A stretch of 32,119 nt of DNA from Desulfopila aestuarii DSM 18488. Its GTDB lineage: Bacteria; Desulfobacterota; Desulfobulbia; Desulfobulbales; Desulfocapsaceae. Below the pieces are notes generated by a model that was not told the origin of the DNA, searched no databases, and saw nothing but the letters and a program-made list of their open reading frames with translations. Below are positions 3,983-18,237 of this stretch, in pieces. Where the stretch lies: assembly GCA_945863875.1 (NCBI GenBank), contig CAMBBS010000046.1:1-32119 (forward strand), read 5' to 3'. Numbering within the stretch: the stretch's first letter is position 1; each line of letters begins with the position of its first letter. A program made the position numbers and the translations under genes.

Positions 3983-5434
3983 AAATTCTGCTGCCTTTAA
4001 GCAACCATGCGTAACAGCGTTTTGACGAAAGAATTTTGCGGTCTTTGCTTTGGCAATGGGCAAATCGATTGAAAATCCTCCCCCAATGCCGCCTCTGCTA
4101 TAATTCTTCGTACATCAGAAAATGCAAATCCAGATCGGCCGCGGATCTTAAATTTTCGATCTGGTGCATATTGCAATCGATCGGCATAAATCCAAGTCAA
4201 TGTTGTAGCCATCATGCAGAAGTTGAGGTGATTGAGCACGGCATCGGCATTTCGTGTCTGTGATTTTGAACTGCCAATCTCCTGCTTGATTTCTTTGAAT
4301 CCCGCTTCAATCTTCCAGCGTGCTCCATAGTATTCAATTATCTGTTCAACGGAGAGAGTCAAGTCCGTTGTCATGAGTGCAACATATCTTGTTTTTCTGT
4401 ACACCCAGACAACACGTACTGGACACTTCATCGTTTTTAACATGATGGTCTGTGCATGAGCCAGCACTTGTCTCTGCTTACCGTAGAGAAAAGCAGTATA
4501 TGGCAGCGCCTTTTCTTTCCATCTGGCGGCACATTCATCGACACTACCCAGACGATCCCCGTATTTTCTGGGACGCCCCGCTTTTGGTTTTCCGTCTTTG
4601 GCCGGAACAGGTGCAAAATCGTACAGCGTAATATTGGTGCGCATGCGGGATAACAAATGAAAATGTCCCTTCGATCCTCTTTTCAGTCGAGACCAGAGGC
4701 CATCATTTCCAAACCAGCTATCAGTCACTACCAGCAGCGGCTTTTGGAAATGCTCATGAATTTCTTTGAGCATTTCAGCAGCCTGTTCCATCTTCGTCGC
4801 AAAAGGGATAAGATGGCCTTTTCGTTTAGCATTACCTGACTTTGCCTTAATGTCCTTCTGCATCATATAAAATCGAAAATCAAGAGGCAGGCAGGCCCAA
4901 CGGGATTTCACTTTTTTAAGCAAACCAATTGCCAGTATACACTGTGACCATGGGTAAGAACTCTGATTTCCTTTTGCTGCATGATCGTGGAAATGGCCAC
5001 AGCCGAAAATCTTCCGACCACTCTTGGGATTGATCGAATCATCGAGTGCAACAATAATGCGCTTTTCTGTTGCCGGCTGGGGAATCAATCTCCACATAGT
5101 TCTCCATAAAGCTTTCCAAGGCAGCGTTGTACTCCCCATGAAGGTATAAAACCGCTGACTCTGGATCTCCAATCCAAACAAAGTTTGCAAGGCACGCAGC
5201 AGATTGGACGTAATTGAGGAGGTGAACGGAACGACCACTGCAAGCAATGTGTATGCAAACCAAATTTTTCTTTTCTGTCCCTGCTTTGTATTGGAAAATT
5301 CCTCTTGCAAAGGTGCAAGTAAATCACGTAATATAAACATGGCAAGCGGCTCCTTTTGATATAATTTCAATGGGTTAGATCATGAAACTATACCATGGTG
5401 TCGCTTGTCTTTCACCACCTATCTTGCTGAATTC
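3983..5434 (-). mobile_element. IS4-type insertion sequence
   Basis: The element carries one transposase gene (3997-5340). Short imperfect inverted ends can be seen: AATTCTGCTG at about 3984-3993, and AATTCAGCAA on the opposite strand at about 5433-5424. The ends were picked by eye and may be off by several bases. No matching target-site duplication is visible: the left flank reads TGTATATCAC and the right flank ATATAATATA. The flanking genes are unrelated and both truncated. Confidence 0.55.
3997..5340 (-). CDS. IS4-superfamily DDE transposase
   Basis: This 447-residue transposase catalyses cut-and-paste movement of its IS. The catalytic triad is visible: the first Asp in IVALDDSINPKSG, the second in LLVVTDSWFGNDGL, and the Glu in YGARWKIEAGFKEIKQEIG. 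That last stretch is an exact YREK signature (Y-x2-R-x3-E-x6-K) of the IS4 superfamily; IS4 or IS701 type is the best call. A TTG-started extension to 5370 is possible, but the ATG at 5340 has a strong ribosome binding site, AAGGAG nine bases upstream. The frame is uninterrupted, and the length and all catalytic residues are normal, so the gene may be active. It is the only intact mobile gene in the window and separates the truncated kinase from the truncated rtcB. Confidence 0.85.
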   Translation of the reverse strand: MFILRDLLAPLQEEFSNTKQGQKRKIWFAYTLLAVVVPFTSSITSNLLRALQTLFGLEIQSQRFYTFMGSTTLPWKALWRTMWRLIPQPATEKRIIVALDDSINPKSGRKIFGCGHFHDHAAKGNQSSYPWSQCILAIGLLKKVKSRWACLPLDFRFYMMQKDIKAKSGNAKRKGHLIPFATKMEQAAEMLKEIHEHFQKPLLVVTDSWFGNDGLWSRLKRGSKGHFHLLSRMRTNITLYDFAPVPAKDGKPKAGRPRKYGDRLGSVDECAARWKEKALPYTAFLYGKQRQVLAHAQTIMLKTMKCPVRVVWVYRKTRYVALMTTDLTLSVEQIIEYYGARWKIEAGFKEIKQEIGSSKSQTRNADAVLNHLNFCMMATTLTWIYADRLQYAPDRKFKIRGRSGFAFSDVRRIIAEAALGEDFQSICPLPKQRPQNSFVKTLLRMVA

Positions 5435-8264: not shown

Positions 8265-9779
8265 ATGCTGATCGTCCATCCACCCCACACCAAACCCTGC
8301 GAGCCGCCGGCTTCCCTGGCCTACCTCTGTGCCTCCCTTGCCGCCCATGGCTACCCGTGCACCATCTGCGACATGAATATCGAAGGGTTGCATTATCTCC
8401 TCAAAACGGCTGAACCGGCGGCGGACACCTGGTCAAAAAGGGCCTTCAAGCACCTGGAAGAGTCTCTTGCCAACCTGCAGCGCGGGGAAATTTATGGCAA
8501 TGTCGATAGGTACCGCCGGGCGGTGGCGGATATAAACCGTGTTCTGGAAAGAGCGGGGAAAGGCTATGGCCTGCAGCTGTCACTGGCCAATTACCAGGAC
8601 GACACCAGATCCCCGCTGAAAAGCGGTGACCTGCTGCTGGCGGGTAAAGAATATGCGGCGAATATTTTCTACCCCTATTTCAGCCGCCGGCTGGAAGAAC
8701 TTCTGGCCGCCGACAATTCCGGGCAGATAGGCTTTTCCCTGAGCTACCTCAGCCAGGCGCTGTGCACCTTCGCCATGATCGGCTACCTGAGGGCGCACCA
8801 TCCGCAAGTGCGGGTCATTCTCGGCGGCGGCCTGGTCACCACCTGGTTGAGCCGGCCGCAGTGGCAAAATCCTTTTGCCGGCCTGGTTGACCAGCTCATC
8901 GGCGGCCGGGGGGAGGGTCCGCTGCTGGCCCTTCTCGGCTCAGAGCAGAGAGTTGAGCCGATACGACCCGACTATGACCAGCTGAGGCACAATGCCTATC
9001 TCTCGCCCGGCTTCATCCTTCCCTACACCAGCTCCTTTGGCTGTTTCTGGAAAAAATGCAGCTTCTGCCCGGAGACCAGTGAAGACAACCCCTATCAGCA
9101 CGTCGCACCGACGACTACCATCGCCGATCTGCAGGCGCTGACCGCGGCCACCTCGCCGAGCCTTATCCATCTTCTCGACAATGCCATCAGTCCGGCAACA
9201 TTAAAGGCTTTGGCCGACACGCCGCCGGGCGTCCCCTGGTATGGTTTTGCCCGCATCGACCGACTGCTCGGCGACCTGGAGTTTTGTCGTCGGTTGAAGG
9301 ATTCCGGTTGCCGCATGCTGAAACTCGGACTCGAATCGGGCGACCAGGGGGTGCTCAACAGCATGCGCAAGGGGATTGATCTCGAGCTTGCCGCACGGGT
9401 ACTGGATAATCTGCATGCTGTCAGCATCGCCACCTACATCTATCTGCTGTTCGGCACCCCTGCGGAGAGTTATCAAGAGGCCGAGCGAACGCGTGCCTTT
9501 GTCGAAGAGCATCACCCGGCGATCAGCTTTCTCAACCTGGCAATTTTCAACCTGCCCATCTCCAGTCAGGAAACGGCGAGCCTTGAGGTGGCTGATTTTT
9601 ATGCCGGCGATTTATCCATCTACCAAAATTTCACCCACCCCAGGGGCTGGAACCGCCAGGAGGTCCGACGTTTTCTCGACAACACCTTTAAACGTTCCCC
9701 CGGAATTGCCGAGATTCTGCGGCGGGATCCCCCATTTTTCACCTCAAACCACGCACCTTTTATGAGCGGCTTGCCCTAA
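8265..9779 (+). CDS. B12-binding-type radical SAM protein
   Basis: The 504-residue protein starts like cobalamin-binding radical SAM enzymes (MLIVHPPHTKPCEPPASLAY), with a Rossmann-like N-terminal region up to about 230 (IGFSLSYLSQALCTFAMIGY, then VRVILGGGLVTTW). The radical SAM core follows. Its cluster motif GCFWKKCSFC has Cys 260, 265 and 268, that is C-x4-C-x2-C instead of the standard C-x3-C-x2-C; this wider spacing is also found in other proteins of the group with a CYWxKCxFC motif. Later core elements are IHLLDNAI, WYGFARIDRL and MLKLGLESGDQGVLNSMRKG. The ATG is preceded by AAGAGAG. It has no partner genes that suggest a substrate: the divergent neighbour is the Tim44-like gene. The enzyme class is clear; the reaction is not. 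Confidence 0.85.
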   Translation: MLIVHPPHTKPCEPPASLAYLCASLAAHGYPCTICDMNIEGLHYLLKTAEPAADTWSKRAFKHLEESLANLQRGEIYGNVDRYRRAVADINRVLERAGKGYGLQLSLANYQDDTRSPLKSGDLLLAGKEYAANIFYPYFSRRLEELLAADNSGQIGFSLSYLSQALCTFAMIGYLRAHHPQVRVILGGGLVTTWLSRPQWQNPFAGLVDQLIGGRGEGPLLALLGSEQRVEPIRPDYDQLRHNAYLSPGFILPYTSSFGCFWKKCSFCPETSEDNPYQHVAPTTTIADLQALTAATSPSLIHLLDNAISPATLKALADTPPGVPWYGFARIDRLLGDLEFCRRLKDSGCRMLKLGLESGDQGVLNSMRKGIDLELAARVLDNLHAVSIATYIYLLFGTPAESYQEAERTRAFVEEHHPAISFLNLAIFNLPISSQETASLEVADFYAGDLSIYQNFTHPRGWNRQEVRRFLDNTFKRSPGIAEILRRDPPFFTSNHAPFMSGLP

Positions 9780-10179: not shown

Positions 10180-11040
10180 TCAGCTGTTCATTTTCACCAC
10201 CTGGACCGGGCAGGTAGCCAGAGCGGCAACCCGCTCGACGACACTGCCTAAAAGAATATCACCCACGCTGGAATATCCCTTTGATCCTAAAACAATATGC
10301 TGCATGCCCTTCTCCTGCGTATACCCTGTCAGACATTTTTCCGGGCTAGCCTCCTGCAATTCGGTAATTACCTGCACGCCAAGTTGTTCCCCCTGCCTGG
10401 CAACGGCCTCCAGGGCCTTGAAGCCCTTATGCCGGGCATCTTTTAACACGCCATAGCGAAGACTCTGGTCCACTGGTACGTCGATTGCGGTTACCGCGTG
10501 CACCTCACCGCCATAACTGAGGGCCAGATCAAAGGCCCGTTGTCCGGCCGCCATGCCGGCAGGGGTGCCGTTTATGCCGACAAGGATTTTTCCATAACGA
10601 ATTTCCGACATTTCCGGCACGAGCAGCACATCACACGGACTGCCGTCGATAATTCTGGCCCGGAGCCTGCCGAGCAGCACCTGTTCCATCTTCGACCGCT
10701 TGGTGTTGCCGAGAATGATCAGCTCGACCCCTTCCTCCTCGGCCAGCCGCACAATCTCCTCGCTCGGCTCGCCGGTCCGGTGTACCGTTTTGATCGACAG
10801 CCCGAGAGACGCGGCATAGGATGCAGCGTCCTCGAGGCTTTTACGAAACGGCGCACTCAGCTGCCTGTCGGCATCATCAATTTCCAGGCGGCTCATATTC
10901 CCCTCGTATCTGGGAGTCACGCTGACAACCACCAGTTGAGCGCGCATCGAGGCCGCCAGGGCCAAAGCCTGCTTGAAAGCCGAATGACTGACGTGGGAAT
11001 TATCGACCGCCACCAGTATTGACTCCATCATGGCGCACAT
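10180..11040 (-). CDS. Tandem-domain universal stress protein (UspA family)
   Basis: The 286-residue protein has two Usp domains, about 1-145 and 146-286. The second carries a full ATP-binding motif, G-x2-G-x9-G-S, in GSKGYSSVGDILLGS; the first has a degenerate version (GNTKRSKMEQVLLG). Each domain begins with the usual beta strand (SILVAVDNSHVSHSAFKQAL and KILVGINGT). Usp proteins are cytosolic ATP-binding stress or signalling proteins of no fixed reaction. The ATG at 11040 is preceded by GGAGG and lies just after the stop of the TSUP exporter gene, so the two are translationally coupled. The operon order (Usp-like/membrane protein, TSUP exporter, Usp) suggests the Usp monitors or regulates the transporter, which is an inference. 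Confidence 0.9.
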   Translation of the reverse strand: MCAMMESILVAVDNSHVSHSAFKQALALAASMRAQLVVVSVTPRYEGNMSRLEIDDADRQLSAPFRKSLEDAASYAASLGLSIKTVHRTGEPSEEIVRLAEEEGVELIILGNTKRSKMEQVLLGRLRARIIDGSPCDVLLVPEMSEIRYGKILVGINGTPAGMAAGQRAFDLALSYGGEVHAVTAIDVPVDQSLRYGVLKDARHKGFKALEAVARQGEQLGVQVITELQEASPEKCLTGYTQEKGMQHIVLGSKGYSSVGDILLGSVVERVAALATCPVQVVKMNS

Positions 11041-11042
11041 GT

Positions 11043-12110
11043 TCAGGCCTCCGCCCGGGCCATTATCAGGGCGTTTTCCTCGCTTCTCGCCTTGAACATG
11101 TTAAAGAGTATGATAAAAGCACCGGTCAAGAGGGCAAAACACATGATGTAAAAACTCATCTGGCTCATCAGCCTCACACTGCCGGCGGTGAAAGATGTCA
11201 CTTCCAGCTGATTCAGATACCGCGGTATGGCGAGAAACCGGCTGACCGCAACGATCAGCATAATGGTGGCCATGACGTATTTGATCATGTAGTCCTTGAC
11301 ATAGGTGGTACCGATCGCCCCCAGCTGGACACCAAAGAGGGAGCCGCCGAGGATAAGCAGGGTGAGACGGATATCGACCATGCCGTAAAAGGCCCAGATA
11401 AGTGTGCCGCCCAGCCCCATGACAAAGGCCACGACGAGCTCGGTGGCCGAAGCGATGATACTCGTTGCGCCGATGATATACATGAGTCCCGGAACACCGA
11501 TAAAGCCACCCACGGCGATGGTCGCCGCGAGCATCCCGGTGGCCAGGGCCACGGGAAGAATGAACCAGACGCTGATGCGCAGGTTGGCTCTTTTGAAGGT
11601 CATCATCGGCCACAACTCGATCTGCTGCAGACGCGCGGCAAGACGTGGTTTCACCCAGCCGTCCCCGCCCGCCTTCCTCAGTTTCAGGGCATCGCGCAGG
11701 ACAAAGGAGCCGACGATGACCAGGACGGAGACGAAACAGACACTGACGTAGAGATTCGATCCCGCCTCGCCCCAGCGGTCGAGGATATTTTTCTGCACCA
11801 TAATACCGACCTGAACCCCGATCTCGGCGAAGACACCCATTATCAGTCCCAGCTTGATATCCACCTGGCCATAGCGGTATCTCTTGATCGAGCCGACCAG
11901 GGCCTTCGGAAACTTATGGCACATATTGCTGGCCACGGCCACGGTACCCGGCACGCCCATGCTCATCATTGCCGGGGTAAGAACAAAGGCGCCGCCCGAG
12001 CCGATAAAACCGCTGACCAGGCCGCCGACAAAACCAACGATTATTAAAAAGACGATGGATGCAAAATTTAAATCAATAAACTGGATCGTTTCAGCTATCG
12101 GTCCGTGCAT
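11043..12110 (-). CDS. TauE/SafE (TSUP) family anion exporter
   Basis: This 355-residue inner-membrane protein has about eight to nine hydrophobic segments. The family signature GLVSGFIGSGGAFVLTPAMM is near residue 30-50, and its internal repeat VGGFIGVPGLMYIIG lies in the second half. TSUP proteins move sulfite, sulfoacetate, taurine-related or other organic anions across the membrane. The large soluble loop in the middle (about 150-180, RKAGGDGWVKPRLAARLQQ) is longer than in the smallest members. The ATG has a strong GAGGAGGAG site six bases upstream. It is the second gene of a three- or four-gene leftward operon with two Usp-type genes. In a sulfur-metabolising host sulfite or a related anion is a likely substrate, but the sequence does not prove it. 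Confidence 0.9.
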   Translation of the reverse strand: MHGPIAETIQFIDLNFASIVFLIIVGFVGGLVSGFIGSGGAFVLTPAMMSMGVPGTVAVASNMCHKFPKALVGSIKRYRYGQVDIKLGLIMGVFAEIGVQVGIMVQKNILDRWGEAGSNLYVSVCFVSVLVIVGSFVLRDALKLRKAGGDGWVKPRLAARLQQIELWPMMTFKRANLRISVWFILPVALATGMLAATIAVGGFIGVPGLMYIIGATSIIASATELVVAFVMGLGGTLIWAFYGMVDIRLTLLILGGSLFGVQLGAIGTTYVKDYMIKYVMATIMLIVAVSRFLAIPRYLNQLEVTSFTAGSVRLMSQMSFYIMCFALLTGAFIILFNMFKARSEENALIMARAEA

Positions 12111-12198
12111 GGCAGACTCCTCCTCTTGCGAATTTTAGTTATTGACATTTCGTGGCGCTGTTCAATTCCAGGGTGCTTTGATCAACCTGGTCATCATC

Positions 12199-13080
12199 TC
12201 ACGCGTCGGCACGCAGACGTGGTCTGGTATCGGGCCGTTTTTCCTCGGATCGTTTTTCGACAGTTCTCGTTTGCTTTAACGTTGCACCCTTCGACCCCTC
12301 GATGCCAAGGGCCGACCAGAAATTGCTGGTGAACGAACCATGGGCATAGGAGAAGGCAAAAACCGTCGCGACCGGCAGCAGCGCAAACAATCCGCCTTTG
12401 GTAAAGTATTTCATGATGAAATCGGCATTACTGAAAACCGCCGCATAAAAAACCGCCGTCATCGCACCGAAAAGAATCGTTTGCCAAAAATGACTTTTCC
12501 TGCTTGTTACCTTCATGGGTTTTTCTCCTTTTAAAATTTTTTTAGCCTGATGGTGCGGGATCATCCTGCCGGTTCGCGCATCGGTGCAGACGATGTTGAA
12601 CACCGGTACGGGTGAAGCCGAAGCCGCTTCTTCAATCTTTATTCCCTGATCAAGCAAAACAAACTCAACCCTCTTGACGATGCGACACAACCTACTGATA
12701 ACCTGACTTATTCTTCCTGATTCTTCGACGAATTCGAACTCCACCCCCCTGGCCGCCGCTTTTTCCTTGAACGCCGCACCATTCTGCTCAATCGCTGCCG
12801 TAAAGAGATCCTGCTGCGTCCCACCCTGCCAAAAGAGCGGCTGGGTATGCACATAGGTGGCCAAAACCTTGCAGTTCATCCGATCCGCCACACTTACCGT
12901 ATAATCCATCACCGGTGGCTCAAGCTGACTGTTTGCGGTTACCAGCAAAATGCAGGATCGTTTGGCCAGGCTGCAGTGCTGTAACATATCGCTGGGCTCT
13001 GTCCGCTGCAAAACCGTCCGCCGGGTGACCTTGCCGTGCATTGTTTTTTCCATAAGCCAGCTTTTCCCTTGTCCGATCAT
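12199..13080 (-). CDS. Usp-like domain fused in frame to a two-helix membrane domain
   Basis: From the chosen start (ATG 13080, GGTGA seven bases upstream; GTG 13137 and ATG 13053 are alternatives) the protein has 293 residues. The first part is a Usp/Rossmann-like domain (SCILLVTANSQLEPPVMDYT, then NCKVLATYVHTQP, then VEFVLLDQGIK) without the ATP-binding G-x2-G motif. After a lysine-rich linker comes MKVTSRKSHFWQTILFGAMT with two membrane helices (TILFGAMTAVFYAAVF and GLFALLPVATVFAFSY) and a charged tail. The Met of MKVTS has its own ideal AAGGAG site eight bases upstream, so this domain can probably also be made alone. The junction contains an A7 run; removing one A gives a TAA right before that site. 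The ancestral state was probably two genes. It leads the operon with the TSUP exporter. Confidence 0.75.
   Translation of the reverse strand: MIGQGKSWLMEKTMHGKVTRRTVLQRTEPSDMLQHCSLAKRSCILLVTANSQLEPPVMDYTVSVADRMNCKVLATYVHTQPLFWQGGTQQDLFTAAIEQNGAAFKEKAAARGVEFEFVEESGRISQVISRLCRIVKRVEFVLLDQGIKIEEAASASPVPVFNIVCTDARTGRMIPHHQAKKILKGEKPMKVTSRKSHFWQTILFGAMTAVFYAAVFSNADFIMKYFTKGGLFALLPVATVFAFSYAHGSFTSNFWSALGIEGSKGATLKQTRTVEKRSEEKRPDTRPRLRADA
12499..12516 (-). promoter_or_regulatory. Internal translation start for the membrane domain
   Basis: On the minus strand AAAAGGAG stands eight bases before the ATG at 12516-12514, inside the fused Usp/membrane gene. Its strength suggests independent translation of a roughly 105-residue membrane protein ending at 12199. 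Confidence 0.6.
12537..12543 (-). other. A7 homopolymer at the domain junction
   Basis: Seven A residues on the coding strand are followed by TTTTAAAAGGAG. With seven A the two domains are in one frame. With six, the frame ends at TAA overlapping the AAGGAG of the second start. This is a candidate site for indel variation, transcriptional slippage or a sequencing error. Confidence 0.6.
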
Positions 13081-13107
13081 CTTTATTTCACCAAGCATTC
13101 TTTCCAT

Positions 13108-13123
13108 TTCAAAAAACAGGCCA
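13108..13123 (-). promoter_or_regulatory. Candidate sigma-54 (-24/-12) promoter for the Usp/TSUP operon
   Basis: On the minus strand TGGCCTG-TTTT-TTGAA matches TGGCAYG-N4-TTGCW in spacing and in all but two positions (C for A, and A for C in the -12 box). It lies about 75-140 bp downstream of the three GTTGC-N5-GCAAC repeats, the usual distance for NtrC-type enhancer sites, and just before the favoured start at 13080. Confidence 0.4.
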
Positions 13124-13195
13124 CTTTGCCTTGTCACTCTATCATATTGTTATTTTGATTTTTATTTTGCAGGACAACACACCATTCTGTTGTGC

Positions 13196-13262
13196 GTTGC
13201 AAATAGCAACGGAATCAGAAAAAAACAAGTTGCACAATGCAACAACCGTTGCGCTCTGCAAC
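13196..13262. promoter_or_regulatory. Three GTTGC-N5-GCAAC operators between the Usp/TSUP operon and lon
   Basis: Three perfect 15-bp inverted repeats lie at 13196-13210 (spacer AAATA), 13229-13243 (ACAAT) and 13248-13262 (GCTCT). Arms are identical and spacers differ, as expected for a dimeric DNA-binding protein. Centres are 33 and 19 bp apart. They lie in the divergent region upstream of lon-REC and of the Usp/TSUP operon. The Fis-type HTH of the NtrC-like regulator at 15422-16783 is the natural candidate to bind them. Confidence 0.75.
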
Positions 13263-13368
13263 CTGGATGGAAGTTCCGAAGTAAAGATTGCTTTTTTGCC
13301 GGATTTGGTACAAAACAACAGAGAGAGGCACGCCCTTGATTCCCCCAGAACAGACGAGGATGGAAATC

Positions 13369-15414
13369 ATGTTTTTCAAAAATAATTCGAAAAATAACGA
13401 GGCACTCCCCGACAAACCGGACAGGGAAGATTCCCCGCTCGACAAACTGCGCAAACAGATTACCGAGGCAAATCTGCCCCGCCATGCCCTGGATGCGGCC
13501 AACAAAGAGCTTGCTAAACTGGCAACGACCGATGCCGCTGTTGCCGAATATTCCGTCGGTCTCAATTACATCGAACTGATCAGTTCCCTGCCCTGGAATG
13601 TCTCCACCAAGGGCACCCTGGACATGGCCCGGGTCCAGTCCATACTCGAGGGTCGACACTGCGGGCTGGCCCAGGTCAAACAGCGCATTCTCGAATTTCT
13701 CGCCGCCAAAACCCTGCGCGGCAGCGTCAGGCAAAACATCCTCGTGGTCGATGACGAAGAAATTGCCCGGTCGAACATGTCCCACGTCCTGCGCAAGGAC
13801 GGTTATGATTGCAAGGGTGCCGAAAACGGCGTCGCGGCCCTGAAAATCCTTGCAGAAGAAGATATTGATCTCATTATCAGCGACCTGAAAATGGATCACA
13901 TGGATGGGTTGGAACTGCTCAACGAGGTGAATCGCAGCTATCCGGCAATTCCGGTCGTCATGGTTACCGGCTTTGCCACGATCCATTCGGCGGTTCAGGC
14001 GATGAAAAGCGGTGCGGCCCACTACCTCGGCAAGCCTGTCAATCTTGATGAACTGCGCCGAACGGTGCGGGAAGTGCTGGCGCAAAAACTCACCAGCGAG
14101 ATGGGCAAAGGACCGATCCTCTGTTTTACCGGCCCGCCGGGAACCGGGAAAACGTCGGTGGGTAAAGCCATCGCCGAGGCGCTGCAGCTCGAATTCATCA
14201 GAATCTCTCTGGCCGGCCTGCGCGATGAAGCGGAACTACGGGGGCATCGACGCACCTACGTCGGCGCCATGCCGGGCCGTATCATCATGGAACTGAAAAG
14301 AGCGGCGGTGAACAATCCCGTCTTCATGCTCGATGAGATCGATAAAATCGGCCAGGACTTTCGCGGCGATCCGGCCTCGGTGATGCTCGAGGTGCTCGAT
14401 CCGGAGCAGAACGTTACATTCATGGACCACTACCTGGATATCCCCTTTAATCTGTCGCGGATCATGTTCATCGCCACGGCCAACGATGTCTCAACCTTGC
14501 CCGGCCCCCTGCTTGACCGCATGGAGCTGATAGAGTTTACCGGCTATACCGAGAAGGAAAAATGCCGCATTGCCCAGGATTTTATCATCCCCCGCCAGCT
14601 CAAAGCCGCCGGTTTGCATAATCTCGGCATCGGCTTTTCACTTGAGGCCATATCGAGAGTGATCAACGATTACACCAGAGAATCCGGGCTTCGTAACCTG
14701 GAAAGAGAGATAGCCAATGTCTGCCGCAAACTGGCGCTGCTCTATCTCGATTCCCAGAAAACGGCGATTGAAACGAAAATCGAGGCCAGCACCATCGCCA
14801 CCCTTCTCGGCCCGCGCAAGTTTATCAGAAACAGCGCCGAAAGTGCGCCCAAAGTGGGTATTGCCACCGGGCTGGTCTGGTCAGGGGTCGGGGGGGAAAT
14901 CATCAGTGTGGAGACGGCATCGATGCGGGGGTCGGGCAAGCTGCTGCTCACCGGTTCCCTGGGCGAGGTCCTGCAGGAGTCGGCCCAGGCGGCGCTGAGT
15001 CTTATCAGGAGCAGATCGGCGGAGTTCGGCATTAAAGAATACTTCTTTCAAGACATGGATATCCATATCCATTTTCCCGCCGGCGGGATTACCAAGGACG
15101 GTCCGTCCGCCGGAATAACCATTTTTGCCGCGCTGCTCTCCCTGTTAACCGGACGTCCGGCTCGAAGTGATGTCGCCATGACCGGAGAAATGACCCTCAG
15201 CGGACGAATTCTGCCCATCGGCGGCATCCGGGAAAAACTGCTGGCCGCACAGCGGGCGGGGATAAAAACCGTGCTGTTGCCCTTGGCCAATAGGGAGGAG
15301 GTGGAAATACTATCGGCCGATGTGCTCGCCGATCTTGACGTGATCCTGGTGGACAACGCCGATGCAGTCATCCCCCGTGTCCTGCTCGCGGCTCAGGAAC
15401 CAACACACGGCTGA
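13369..15414 (+). CDS. Lon-type protease with an inserted response-regulator receiver domain
   Basis: The ATG at 13369 follows GAGGA by eight bases and gives 681 residues. Residues about 25-122 match the helical bundle before the Lon motor (PLDKLRKQITEANLP, ISSLPWN, ILEFLAAKTL). Residues about 123-238 are a complete receiver domain: acidic pair Asp128-Asp129, phospho-acceptor Asp172 (SDLKM), Thr200, Lys222. From 250 the Lon sequence resumes exactly where it left off: Walker A GPPGTGKTS 255-263, Walker B VFMLDEIDKIG, sensor FIATAND, then the protease domain with catalytic Ser580 (DGPSAG) and Lys623 (REKL). Their 43-residue spacing equals that of E. coli Lon. The N-terminal PUA-like substrate domain is missing. 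Phosphorylation could switch the ATPase or substrate choice. It is divergent from the Usp/TSUP operon and convergent with a kinase/NtrC pair. Confidence 0.9.
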   Translation: MFFKNNSKNNEALPDKPDREDSPLDKLRKQITEANLPRHALDAANKELAKLATTDAAVAEYSVGLNYIELISSLPWNVSTKGTLDMARVQSILEGRHCGLAQVKQRILEFLAAKTLRGSVRQNILVVDDEEIARSNMSHVLRKDGYDCKGAENGVAALKILAEEDIDLIISDLKMDHMDGLELLNEVNRSYPAIPVVMVTGFATIHSAVQAMKSGAAHYLGKPVNLDELRRTVREVLAQKLTSEMGKGPILCFTGPPGTGKTSVGKAIAEALQLEFIRISLAGLRDEAELRGHRRTYVGAMPGRIIMELKRAAVNNPVFMLDEIDKIGQDFRGDPASVMLEVLDPEQNVTFMDHYLDIPFNLSRIMFIATANDVSTLPGPLLDRMELIEFTGYTEKEKCRIAQDFIIPRQLKAAGLHNLGIGFSLEAISRVINDYTRESGLRNLEREIANVCRKLALLYLDSQKTAIETKIEASTIATLLGPRKFIRNSAESAPKVGIATGLVWSGVGGEIISVETASMRGSGKLLLTGSLGEVLQESAQAALSLIRSRSAEFGIKEYFFQDMDIHIHFPAGGITKDGPSAGITIFAALLSLLTGRPARSDVAMTGEMTLSGRILPIGGIREKLLAAQRAGIKTVLLPLANREEVEILSADVLADLDVILVDNADAVIPRVLLAAQEPTHG

Positions 15415-15421
15415 CACGCCA

Positions 15422-16783
15422 TCAGTTTTCGGGATCATCGAGACCATAGCGCTTGATTTTTCTCCACAGGGAAACCCGGTCGATCTGTAATATTTTTGCC
15501 GCTTTCGATCTGTTGCCTGCCGTCTCGTCAAGGACATCGAGAATATAATTTTTTTCATGTTCCTCAAGGGACGGCCAGGAATCCACGGCGACCCGGGAAG
15601 GGGTCACCGAACTGCCGTGCAGATCTTCGAGGAGATGGGCTGACGCAATGACCTCGCCGTCGCTCTGAAGCAGCAGGCGCTGGGCGATATTCTCCAGCTC
15701 CCGGACGTTTCCCGGATAGGCATATTGTTTGAGCTGCTGGGCAACTTCCGGGGAAAGCCTCGGCACTGTTGCCGACGGAGGGGAATGTTTGGCCAGGAAA
15801 TGGTTGACGAGGATGGGGATATCTTCCTTGCGCTCGGCCAGAGCCGGAACCTTGATGGTCAGGACATCTAGCCGGTAAAAAAGGTCAAGCCGGAACGCCC
15901 CGTTTTCCGCCTCCTTTTTCAAGTCTTTATTGGTTGCGGCGATAATTCGGATATCGATGGGAATCTCCTCTGTGCCGCCGACCCGCATGAGCGTTCGTTC
16001 CTGGAGAACCCGGAGCAGCTTCACCTGCATCGGCAGGGACAGTTCACCCACCTCGTCAAAAAATACCGTCCCGCCTTCGGCCAGTTCCAGCAGTCCTTTC
16101 TTGATCTGCGATGCCCCGGTAAAAGCGCCCTTTTCATGGCCGAAAAGCTCACTGGTGATCAGCTCCTCGGTAAAGGCGCCGCAGTTGAAGGCGACAAAAC
16201 GTTTCGCCGACCGGGGACTGAGCTCATGGATCGTCCGCGCCACCAGTTCCTTGCCGGTACCGGTTTCTCCCTGAATAAGCACATTGCAGTCCAACTGGGC
16301 GACCTGCACGATACTCTCACGCAGCAGTTGGATTTTCAGGCTCCTGCCGAGAATCCTGGTGACCCCGGTGGTGGAAGAAACCCGTTTCCTGAGCTCGATC
16401 ACCTCTTGACGCAAGGCCCTTTTTTCCAGGGCTTTTTGTACCAGGGCGAGCATCTCCTCCTTCTTGACCGGTTTTGCCAGATAATGGTAGGCACCTTTCT
16501 GTATGGCCTCCACCGCGGTATCGACACTGGCGTAGCCGGTGACGACAATCACCTCGGTCTGGGGCCACAATCTTTTACAGGCGTCAAGAACCGCCAGGCC
16601 ATCCTTGCCCTTCATGCGCAGATCGGTCAAAACAAGATCAACTTCCCGGTTCTCCAGAACACCAATGGCCGCCAGCCCATCTTCAGCGGTAAGGACTTCG
16701 TACCCGCCTTTCTTCAGGAGATATGCGACATTATCCCGGGCGATGGCCTCGTCATCGACCACCAGCAGCTGTGGTGCACTCAC
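15422..16783 (-). CDS. NtrC-family sigma-54-dependent response regulator
   Basis: The 453-residue protein has a receiver domain (1-120, phospho-acceptor Asp54 in LTDLRM), a sigma-54 activating AAA+ domain (about 143-370) and a Fis-type HTH (about 410-450, NRSKAAKILQIDRVSLWRKI). The AAA+ domain has Walker A GETGTGKE 172-179, the sigma-54 contact loop GAFTGA 219-224 and Walker B TVFFDEVGEL. The start is a GTG overlapping the kinase stop by four bases, with GGGAG seven bases upstream, so the two are coupled. Only seven bases separate its stop from that of the convergent lon-REC gene. Its receiver is about 50/114 identical without gaps to the Lon receiver, suggesting a common origin and the same kinase. 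It probably binds the GTTGC-N5-GCAAC sites at 13196-13262. Confidence 0.93.
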   Translation of the reverse strand: MSAPQLLVVDDEAIARDNVAYLLKKGGYEVLTAEDGLAAIGVLENREVDLVLTDLRMKGKDGLAVLDACKRLWPQTEVIVVTGYASVDTAVEAIQKGAYHYLAKPVKKEEMLALVQKALEKRALRQEVIELRKRVSSTTGVTRILGRSLKIQLLRESIVQVAQLDCNVLIQGETGTGKELVARTIHELSPRSAKRFVAFNCGAFTEELITSELFGHEKGAFTGASQIKKGLLELAEGGTVFFDEVGELSLPMQVKLLRVLQERTLMRVGGTEEIPIDIRIIAATNKDLKKEAENGAFRLDLFYRLDVLTIKVPALAERKEDIPILVNHFLAKHSPPSATVPRLSPEVAQQLKQYAYPGNVRELENIAQRLLLQSDGEVIASAHLLEDLHGSSVTPSRVAVDSWPSLEEHEKNYILDVLDETAGNRSKAAKILQIDRVSLWRKIKRYGLDDPEN

Positions 16784-18237
16784 GACAAATCTCCCTGTTC
16801 GGCCACCTGCTCATGCCGCAGCGGCAGATAAATAAAAAAGGACGCTCCGTTACCCGGCACGCTTGCCACAACTATCCTGCCATTATGCTTCTGGATGATG
16901 CCATAGGCGATAGACAAGCCCAGGCCGGTCCCCTGCCCCTCTTCTTTCGTCGTGTAAAAGGGATCGAAGAGACGATCTTTTATTTCGTCAGGGATCCCCG
17001 TCCCGGTGTCGGTGATCTCGATAACCGCTTCACTGCTGCTTCTCTCAACAGACGCGGAAAGGGTGATTCTCCCTTCATCGACGATGGCCTGCGAGGCGTT
17101 GATGATCATTATGATCAGCACTTCCTGTATTCTCTGGACATCCATCGGCAGGAACAGATTTTCCGGAACATCGACCAAAATGTCGACTGCCGAGGGCACC
17201 TGGCTTTTAACGAGCTGCACCGAGCGGTTGACCACATTCTGCAGGTTGGCGGGATGCAGCTGAAATTCCTTGCTCCGTGAAAATTCCAGCAGTCCCTGCA
17301 CAACGTCTCTTGCCCGATAGGTTTCCTGTTCGATATTGCGCAGCATCTGTTTGATCAGCTGTGGATCGTCCGCATCGAAATCATCGACGGCAATCTGGCA
17401 GGAGGTGGAAATATTATTCAGAGGATTGTTCAACTGGTGGGCGATACCGGCGGTAAGAGTGCCGATAGAGGAAAGCTTTTGTGACTGAACGAGCTGATCC
17501 TGCCGGCGTTCCAGCTCTTTCACCATGATATTGAATGCCTCCATGACCTGCTGCATTTCATCTCTGGTGTCGAGTACCTCAATTTTACTGAAACGCCCCT
17601 GGGCGATATCTTCGGTAGCCTCTTTAATAATGCGCAGCGGCACGAAAATACGAAACGTCATGATCAGGGGCATAAAGATGCCGACGGTTATGGCCACAAG
17701 AGACCAGGCAATAAGCCGCCTGACCAGTTCGTCTAAAATGATGCGGATCTGATTATGTTCAAAGCTGACCAGCTCCTCACTGAGCTCGGTCATCTCCTGC
17801 CCCTGATAGCGGAGCTCGTCGGCCAATTCGCCATGTGCCACCTGGCTGTTGACACGCATTTTTTTCGAAAGAAGCTCCATGCCCGTCTGATAGGAGGCGG
17901 CAAGATTCTTCAGTTGCCTGAGCATGGCATGCGCTTTGAGCCTCGCCACCTTTTCGGAGATCTTCTCCACTGTTTTCAGGGCGAGGGCCAGTTGTCTGGT
18001 GTTTTCCTGCAAAGACTCCTGCGTTCCATAGAGGAGAAAATTCTTCTCATATCTCCGTACTTCAAGGACCATGTTATTGAGACTGTAGGCCAGTTCAACC
18101 ACCTCGAGCTTTTCTTTGGCCGTCTGCAGATCCTCCTGGGAGACTATAAACATGACGAGAATACCAAAGACATAGCATCCCAGGATAATGATGATTTTAG
18201 ATCTCAGGCTGAGAGAGAGTATGTTGCGATGCTTCAT
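16780..18237 (-). CDS. Membrane sensor histidine kinase (HAMP-HisKA-HATPase)
   Basis: The ATG at 18237 (GGAG seven bases upstream) gives 485 residues; the frame is open to 18378 but has no better start. Two membrane helices (about 13-33 and 174-196) flank a helical periplasmic domain of about 140 residues with no cysteines or cache motifs. A HAMP linker (MTFRIFVPLRIIKEATEDIA) and a short coiled coil lead to HisKA with His267 in AGIAHQLNNPL. The ATPase domain has INASQAI, DTGTGIP, FDPFYTTK and GTGLGLSI. The residue after the phospho-His is Gln where most HisKA kinases have Glu or Asp. The gene overlaps the NtrC-type regulator by four bases. It likely phosphorylates that regulator and possibly the receiver inside Lon. 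The signal is unknown. Confidence 0.92.
   Translation of the reverse strand: MKHRNILSLSLRSKIIIILGCYVFGILVMFIVSQEDLQTAKEKLEVVELAYSLNNMVLEVRRYEKNFLLYGTQESLQENTRQLALALKTVEKISEKVARLKAHAMLRQLKNLAASYQTGMELLSKKMRVNSQVAHGELADELRYQGQEMTELSEELVSFEHNQIRIILDELVRRLIAWSLVAITVGIFMPLIMTFRIFVPLRIIKEATEDIAQGRFSKIEVLDTRDEMQQVMEAFNIMVKELERRQDQLVQSQKLSSIGTLTAGIAHQLNNPLNNISTSCQIAVDDFDADDPQLIKQMLRNIEQETYRARDVVQGLLEFSRSKEFQLHPANLQNVVNRSVQLVKSQVPSAVDILVDVPENLFLPMDVQRIQEVLIIMIINASQAIVDEGRITLSASVERSSSEAVIEITDTGTGIPDEIKDRLFDPFYTTKEEGQGTGLGLSIAYGIIQKHNGRIVVASVPGNGASFFIYLPLRHEQVAEQGDLS

Follow-up and report, generated by a model that had tools for sequence, protein, structure and literature searches.

A Lon protease with an inserted receiver domain, probably phospho-regulated and linked to a conserved kinase and NtrC-type regulator

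The gene at positions 13369 to 15414 (+) of the window, the 32,119-nucleotide stretch of Desulfopila aestuarii DNA that was analyzed, encodes a LonA-type AAA+ protease that lacks the N-terminal substrate domain and carries a complete receiver (REC) immediately ahead of the Walker A strand. This protein, here called REC-Lon, is real and conserved and is probably a phospho-regulated Lon. The reading we prefer, with a probability of roughly 0.6, is that a single two-component pathway would have two outputs, an active REC-Lon being one of them, with the Lon motor switched by phosphorylation. The REC-Lon architecture and its genetic system are already in print and hence not new; what is added here is the insertion point of the receiver, the joint group formed by the Lon and neighbor receivers, their shared alpha-1 contact residues, and the enrichment of a palindrome upstream of the gene.

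Domain architecture and the position of the receiver

The translation begins with MFFK and runs for 681 aa with no internal stop. Pfam assigned Response_reg to residues 124 to 233 (1.4e-29), AAA to 251 to 390, Lon_lid to 412 to 463, and Lon_C to 470 to 672 (4e-76, 259 bits), and the NCBIfam model of endopeptidase La, TIGR00763, matched with 700 bits against a cutoff of 608. When compared with the PDB by phmmer, the segments from residue 23 or 24 to 117 to 119 and from 238 to 245 to 676 or 677 aligned with Lon, and in both alignments shown (Thermus and Bacillus subtilis Lon) the receiver was a clean, unaligned insert. On the plus strand, the protein is therefore laid out as the Lon helical bundle with the presumed first AAA+ helix (13435 to 13719, residues 23 to 117, from the alignments with these two Lons), the inserted receiver (13729 to 14088, approximately residues 121 to 240, from Pfam, the structural model, and conservation), the AAA+ core and lid (14101 to 14757, residues 245 to 463, with Walker A GPPGTGKT at 255 to 262, from Pfam, phmmer, and conservation), and the S16 peptidase domain (14776 to 15384) with the Ser580/Lys623 dyad. 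These results confirm the original prediction of a Lon carrying a complete inserted receiver; D128, D129, D172, T200, K222, Walker A at 255 to 262, S580, and K623 are all where they had been placed. The E. coli-like spacing claimed for the dyad was also borne out, being 43 residues and equal to that of S679 and K722, the latter of which we take to be the dyad lysine of E. coli Lon.

The loss of the N-terminal substrate domain, likewise predicted, was supported from two sides. The N-terminal LON domain was not among the nine Pfam families listed for REC-Lon and gave no Pfam match in the eight relatives scanned, and 27 of 28 aligned REC-Lons had an ATG at the equivalent start, which lies at the bundle; none was found in L018. 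In the stop-to-stop frames of 88 REC-Lons, the residues ahead of residue 23 had a median of 31 and a maximum of 153. Compared with bacterial LonA (TIGR00763), REC-Lon therefore retains the bundle, AAA+ core, lid, and S16 dyad but differs in having a receiver before Walker A and no N-terminal substrate domain.

The insert had been predicted to lie between the helical bundle and the motor. Its position before Walker A stands, but it presumably lies inside the AAA+ module. The predicted structure (mean pLDDT 79.8, pTM 0.64; top Foldseek matches, Lon chains) shows helix 101 to 119 ahead of the receiver, whose final helix, 226 to 245, is long and leads into the P-loop strand at 250 to 254, with the joint between the receiver and the AAA+ domain modeled at low confidence (pLDDT 58 for block 241 to 250). 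Helix 101 to 119 comes after H97-x-G99-L100, assumed here to mark box II of the AAA+ module. If this helix is the first AAA+ helix, we take it that the receiver sits inside the module, between that helix and the P-loop strand.

The D. aestuarii genome contains six Lon_C matches, including three other strong ones in frames of 785 to 821 aa, so REC-Lon is an additional Lon. Two weaker Lon_C-related matches were also recorded, one at C7:10998-11303 (43 bits, 827-aa frame) and one at C68:9611-9838 (34 bits, 455-aa frame).

Distribution and conservation of REC-Lon

Full-length, stop-free matches to a 232-aa fragment spanning the junction were found in 28 of 57 genomes, counting the genome of origin. 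The original prediction had allowed for an assembly error unseen in relatives; this result and the searches that followed rule out an error or chimera of that kind. The search across genomes that it had proposed did find the same architecture. With a 28-row profile of the REC-Lon junction, the class search found REC-Lon in 94 of 257 genomes, in 95 rows that all reached 1.3e-64 or better, some of the frames being cut by contig ends and one containing a stop, and the phylum search found REC-Lon in 48 of 395 genomes; the class, phylum, and relatives searches have some genomes in common. The class matches were bimodal, and from 6e-50 on only the receiver part was matched, in frames of response-regulator length. 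REC-Lon was also found in 25 of 198 genomes of Nitrospirota. In a wider contig scan, at least 3 of the best 80 loci matched the junction in full within one segment (1e-56 or better). Among the named holders were Desulfobacter vibrioformis DSM 8776, a Desulfocurvus metagenome-assembled genome (MAG), a "Proteobacteria" MAG, and a "Nitrospirae bacterium" MAG, all with the identical domain order. In the phylum of a Methylobacter MAG, REC-Lon was found in 0 of 398 genomes in a search run without a positive control, for which reason this count does not contradict the orthologs in Thioalkalivibrio and Dechloromonas stated by Rajeev (2011, PMC3333781).

The catalytic residues of all three modules were nearly invariant. 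Among 88 distinct REC-Lons, D128, D172, and K222 were present in all 88, D129 in 87 (the remaining one having Glu), and the T200 position was occupied by Thr in 82 and Ser in 6; a vestigial receiver is ruled out by this conservation. In the motor, K261, T262, E323, R384, and R442 were conserved in 88 of 88 and D322 and N372 in 87, residues which we take to be those of Walker A and B, the sensor, and the Arg finger. Both S580 and K623 were found in all 87 REC-Lons that contain the region.

In a tree of the Lon part, built by a quick method with no bootstrap, 39 REC-Lons (sampled from the 79 with the motif) were separated by one branch (SH-aLRT 99) from 56 canonical Lons, a set taken from a scan favoring GPPGTGKTS and possibly biased by it. 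This topology is consistent with a single origin of the family. At one locus, L190 (G064), a second REC-Lon copy lies near the first at 13239 to 14711; it is 491 aa long, with a receiver and AAA+ domain and no Lon_C match, and is possibly a protease-less paralogue.

Linked genes, shared receiver ancestry, and upstream palindromes

Downstream of REC-Lon, and convergent with it, lies a gene for an NtrC-type sigma-54 response regulator (15422 to 16783, minus strand; Pfam), followed by a histidine kinase gene with HAMP, HisKA, and HATPase_c domains (16780 to 18237, minus strand; start uncertain, the listed open reading frame reaching 18378). The end of the kinase gene and the start of the regulator gene overlap by 4 bases. 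Upstream of REC-Lon, and divergent from it, is a gene read by eye as USP-like with a membrane stretch (12199 to 13137, minus strand; start uncertain), whose product had no Pfam match; beyond it on the same strand are a TauE/SafE family permease (11043 to 12110; Pfam) and a tandem universal stress protein (10180 to 11040; two Pfam Usp stretches).

Linkage was surveyed in 43 other loci, with ∼8 kb fetched on either side; these were L035 to L037 and 40 regions picked for contig room and spread among the REC-Lon genomes rather than drawn at random. A regulator scoring at least 400 bits was present in the fetched stretch of 34 loci. Because the best paralogue of the regulator in its own genome reaches only 378 bits, these neighbors resemble orthologs more than NtrC proteins in general. 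Nine loci had no regulator of at least 400 bits in the fetched stretch, and two of the nine have one at 331 or 397 bits. The regulator and kinase occurred as a pair in 32 of the 43 loci, so that the proposed check of neighbors across genomes turned out in favor of linkage. The kinase at 16780 to 18237, originally suggested as the partner, is the best candidate. In 24 loci, the near end of the regulator gene was 1.8 to 4.2 kb from the REC-Lon start (20 convergent, 4 codirectional). A TauE match of at least 350 bits was found in 26 of the 43 loci, as was a match of >60 bits to the USP-like product near REC-Lon. At L155, L156, L176, L178, and L193, a TauE homologue (58 to 59% identical) lies upstream and codirectional with REC-Lon, with the USP genes farther off.

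The Lon receiver was found to be related to that of the neighboring regulator. Among the 97 receiver hits in its own genome, REC-Lon included, the regulator's receiver was the nearest to it (7e-30), the next scoring 1.6e-24. In a tree of 148 receivers, 88 Lon receivers and 33 neighbor receivers formed one group (support 99/91), with 27 other receivers of the same genome outside; 2 of 35 neighbor receivers were too short and were dropped, and the outsiders were the usable 27 of the 28 nearest among the 96 other hits. Descent of the receiver from an unrelated regulator is ruled out by this grouping. The Lon receivers were not resolved as a single clade within the tree (two changes, with one neighbor receiver inside).

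The likeness was concentrated at the positions expected to meet the kinase. The alpha-1 contacts of Spo0F, residues 14, 15, 18, 21, and 22, presumably correspond to REC-Lon residues 132, 133, 136, 139, and 140. At these five positions, Lon and neighbor receivers were 68% identical, compared with 3.5% for Lon against the 27 others and 14% among those others; N136 was present in 88/88 Lon receivers, 33/33 neighbor receivers, and 0/27 of the rest. No excess identity (Lon to neighbor versus Lon to others) was observed in the remainder of alpha-1 (34% versus 32%), in alpha-2 (32% versus 31%), in alpha-3 (30% versus 31%), or in the beta5-alpha5 loop, another kinase contact (39% versus 36%). Identity was moderately raised in alpha-4 (53% versus 40%) and alpha-5 (40% versus 31%) and strongly raised in the beta4-alpha4 loop (77% versus 36%), elements that are not all kinase contacts. 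Common descent accounts for part of the alpha-1 likeness; since the contact positions lie far above the rest of the same helix, the comparison also points to a shared kinase serving both receivers. Cognate and noncognate Lon-regulator pairs gave 0.68 and 0.69 at the contact positions, with no extra covariation, and the putative kinase face is by this measure fixed across the family rather than tuned in each genome.

The palindrome TTGC-N5-GCAA occurs three times in the window, at 13197 to 13209, 13230 to 13242, and 13249 to 13261, all within the divergent intergenic region between REC-Lon and the USP-like gene, and each copy is a putative site of the neighboring regulator. When the whole window was shuffled 100 times, 7 of the shuffles reached three or more copies; the signal there is hence where the copies lie and not how many there are. 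Across 44 loci, 37 copies were counted in 17,239 bp upstream of REC-Lon and 37 in the other 697,889 bp, a 40-fold enrichment, the p-value of which counts related loci as independent. The palindrome was present upstream in 21 of the 44 loci, the next commonest palindrome of that form being in 4; the other 23 had no exact copy within 400 bp upstream, one of them offering just 39 bp. As the palindrome had first been spotted in the window, the count was repeated without it, giving 34 versus 37 copies, a 36-fold enrichment, in 20 of 43 loci. Tandem copies occurred at one place in the 4.69-Mb genome, upstream of REC-Lon, and nowhere in a reversed control.

In L035, L036, L160, L161, L165, L172, L184, and L186, two copies of the palindrome upstream of REC-Lon are 87 to 91 bp apart, perhaps one for each divergent promoter, and in L177, L191, and L192 two copies are 51 to 53 bp apart. 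A sigma-54 promoter match upstream of REC-Lon in the window was not significant (p ∼0.38); good matches do occur in certain relatives, in part on the other strand.

A proposed phosphorylation switch, its alternatives, and the published system

The original prediction set REC-Lon against known Lons, said to respond to substrates and nucleotides and not to a built-in receiver, and here it missed a case already published. DVU3303 of Desulfovibrio vulgaris has been described as a response regulator containing a Lon protease and proposed, with a kinase and an NtrC-type regulator, as a "three-component system" (PMC3333781). DVU3303 to DVU3305 are given as one operon (PMC3333781 and PMC4641369), and the DAP-chip targets of DVU3305, listed in both papers, are a neighboring operon that encodes membrane proteins, UspA proteins, and an anion transporter. 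According to Trotter (2023, PMC10102598), all pairwise cofitness values of the trio exceed 0.9 over 757 measurements, and the three genes are detrimental in chlorate, where the target anion transporter DVU3299 is important. In view of the single operon, the cofitness could partly reflect polarity (a search of the text of PMC10102598 for "polar" gave nothing), and the chlorate signs are puzzling for a simple activator, because the system is detrimental while its target transporter is needed. A biochemical study of REC-Lon was not found in the literature searched, which covered few subscription journals.

The prediction of a two-component-controlled Lon is well supported by the conserved receiver site, the adjoining kinase and NtrC-type regulator, the alpha-1 contacts, and the D. 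vulgaris genetics. Phosphorylation would likely switch the protease. In the proposed scheme, the kinase would phosphorylate both the regulator and Asp172 of the Lon receiver. The phosphorylated regulator would use the TTGC-N5-GCAA sites to act on the divergent promoter region between REC-Lon and the USP-TauE genes. In Lon, where the last receiver helix leads directly into the Walker A strand, receiver phosphorylation may change motor assembly or ATPase activity and thereby switch the breakdown of a few substrates belonging to this stress and anion-transport response; activation is the direction we would favor. A more specific version, which has about an even chance of being right, is that the protease is a direct enzymatic output of the two-component system, with the last receiver helix coupled to the Walker A strand in such a way that one aspartate phosphorylation gates the Lon AAA+ ring. 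A duplicated receiver would let one kinase control a transcription factor and a protease side by side, and the arrangement would have had a single origin and been retained in both Thermodesulfobacteriota (Desulfobacterota) and Nitrospirota.

Alternatively, the receiver could be a substrate-docking or adaptor domain that replaces the N-terminal domain, with phosphorylation picking the protein, for example a partner receiver, to be brought to a constitutively active Lon whose motor is not switched. Receivers can pair, the receiver proteins RssB and CpdR act as adaptors of this kind for ClpXP, and the absence of the N-terminal domain from REC-Lon and the eight scanned relatives, with the ATG at the bundle, would suit such a role. 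We nonetheless hold it to be rather unlikely, as the insertion adjoins Walker A and not the N terminus, a poor place for a mere tether, and the alpha-1 kinase face is what stands out among the surfaces compared. A negative-feedback role, in which the pathway is reset by REC-Lon breaking down its kinase or its NtrC-type regulator, seems improbable. Passages of a review describe the degradation of response regulators by Lon and other AAA+ proteases, and the close linkage and common receiver ancestry could permit REC-REC contact; yet loss of the Lon gene in D. vulgaris gives the same phenotype as loss of the kinase or regulator (cofitness of >0.9 in PMC10102598), whereas an antagonist, once removed, should give the contrary effect, unless polarity is responsible for the agreement.

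There is only a slim chance that the receiver serves mainly as a phosphate sink, which would vie with the regulator for access to the kinase and leave the protease unaffected. Its alpha-1 face is the same as the regulator's, as a sink would have it, but a sink would not call for one fixed insertion point in a Lon that has stayed catalytically intact in both phyla. The idea that the fusion is accidental, or that a housekeeping Lon merely contains a degenerate receiver, can practically be dismissed in view of the many genomes with REC-Lon, the phospho-acceptor Asp and the Lys fixed in 88/88, and the three other strong Lon_C matches in frames of 785 to 821 aa.

The favored switch of the motor has partial parallels elsewhere. 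Like the NtrC-family regulators, with one of which its receiver groups, REC-Lon has a receiver that feeds an AAA+ ring; it differs in that the output is a protease instead of sigma-54 activation and in that the receiver presumably lies inside the AAA+ module and not ahead of it. RssB and CpdR, receiver adaptors for ClpXP, likewise place an AAA+ protease under two-component control, but as separate proteins. Other Lons are regarded as controlled by substrates, nucleotides, and adaptors. Should the receiver gate the motor, REC-Lon would offer a naturally occurring phospho-switch on Lon that is accessible to genetics, through which on/off control of the ring could be tested with a defined input, and two-component biology would gain a protease output. 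In Xanthomonas citri, phosphorylation of Lon at Ser654 is deactivating (PMC5784255), which resembles the change in Lon activity proposed here; there the phospho-site is a Ser of Lon itself, and the abstract mentions no receiver.

The window resembles the DVU3303 system in having a receiver and Lon in one protein, in the linked kinase and sigma-54 response regulator (DVU3304 and DVU3305 in D. vulgaris), and in the USP, TauE, and USP-like genes at 10180 to 13137, a likeness that is based on the published description and the gene neighborhood. From its position and family, the TauE gene would correspond to DVU3299. The Desulfocurvus MAG (L036, Desulfovibrionaceae), presumably of the same family as Desulfovibrio, has the same domain order, a TauE neighbor, and the palindromes. 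Unlike the D. vulgaris operon, REC-Lon in the window is convergent with the regulator-kinase pair, and convergent loci of this kind permit genetics free of single-operon polarity. Farther out, the window also contains a radical SAM protein gene with a weak B12-binding match at 8265 to 9779 (+), whose best NCBIfam matches are far below the cutoffs, and a DDE-type transposase gene (DDE_5, DDE_Tnp_1) at 3997 to 5370 on the minus strand, ∼8 kb from REC-Lon.
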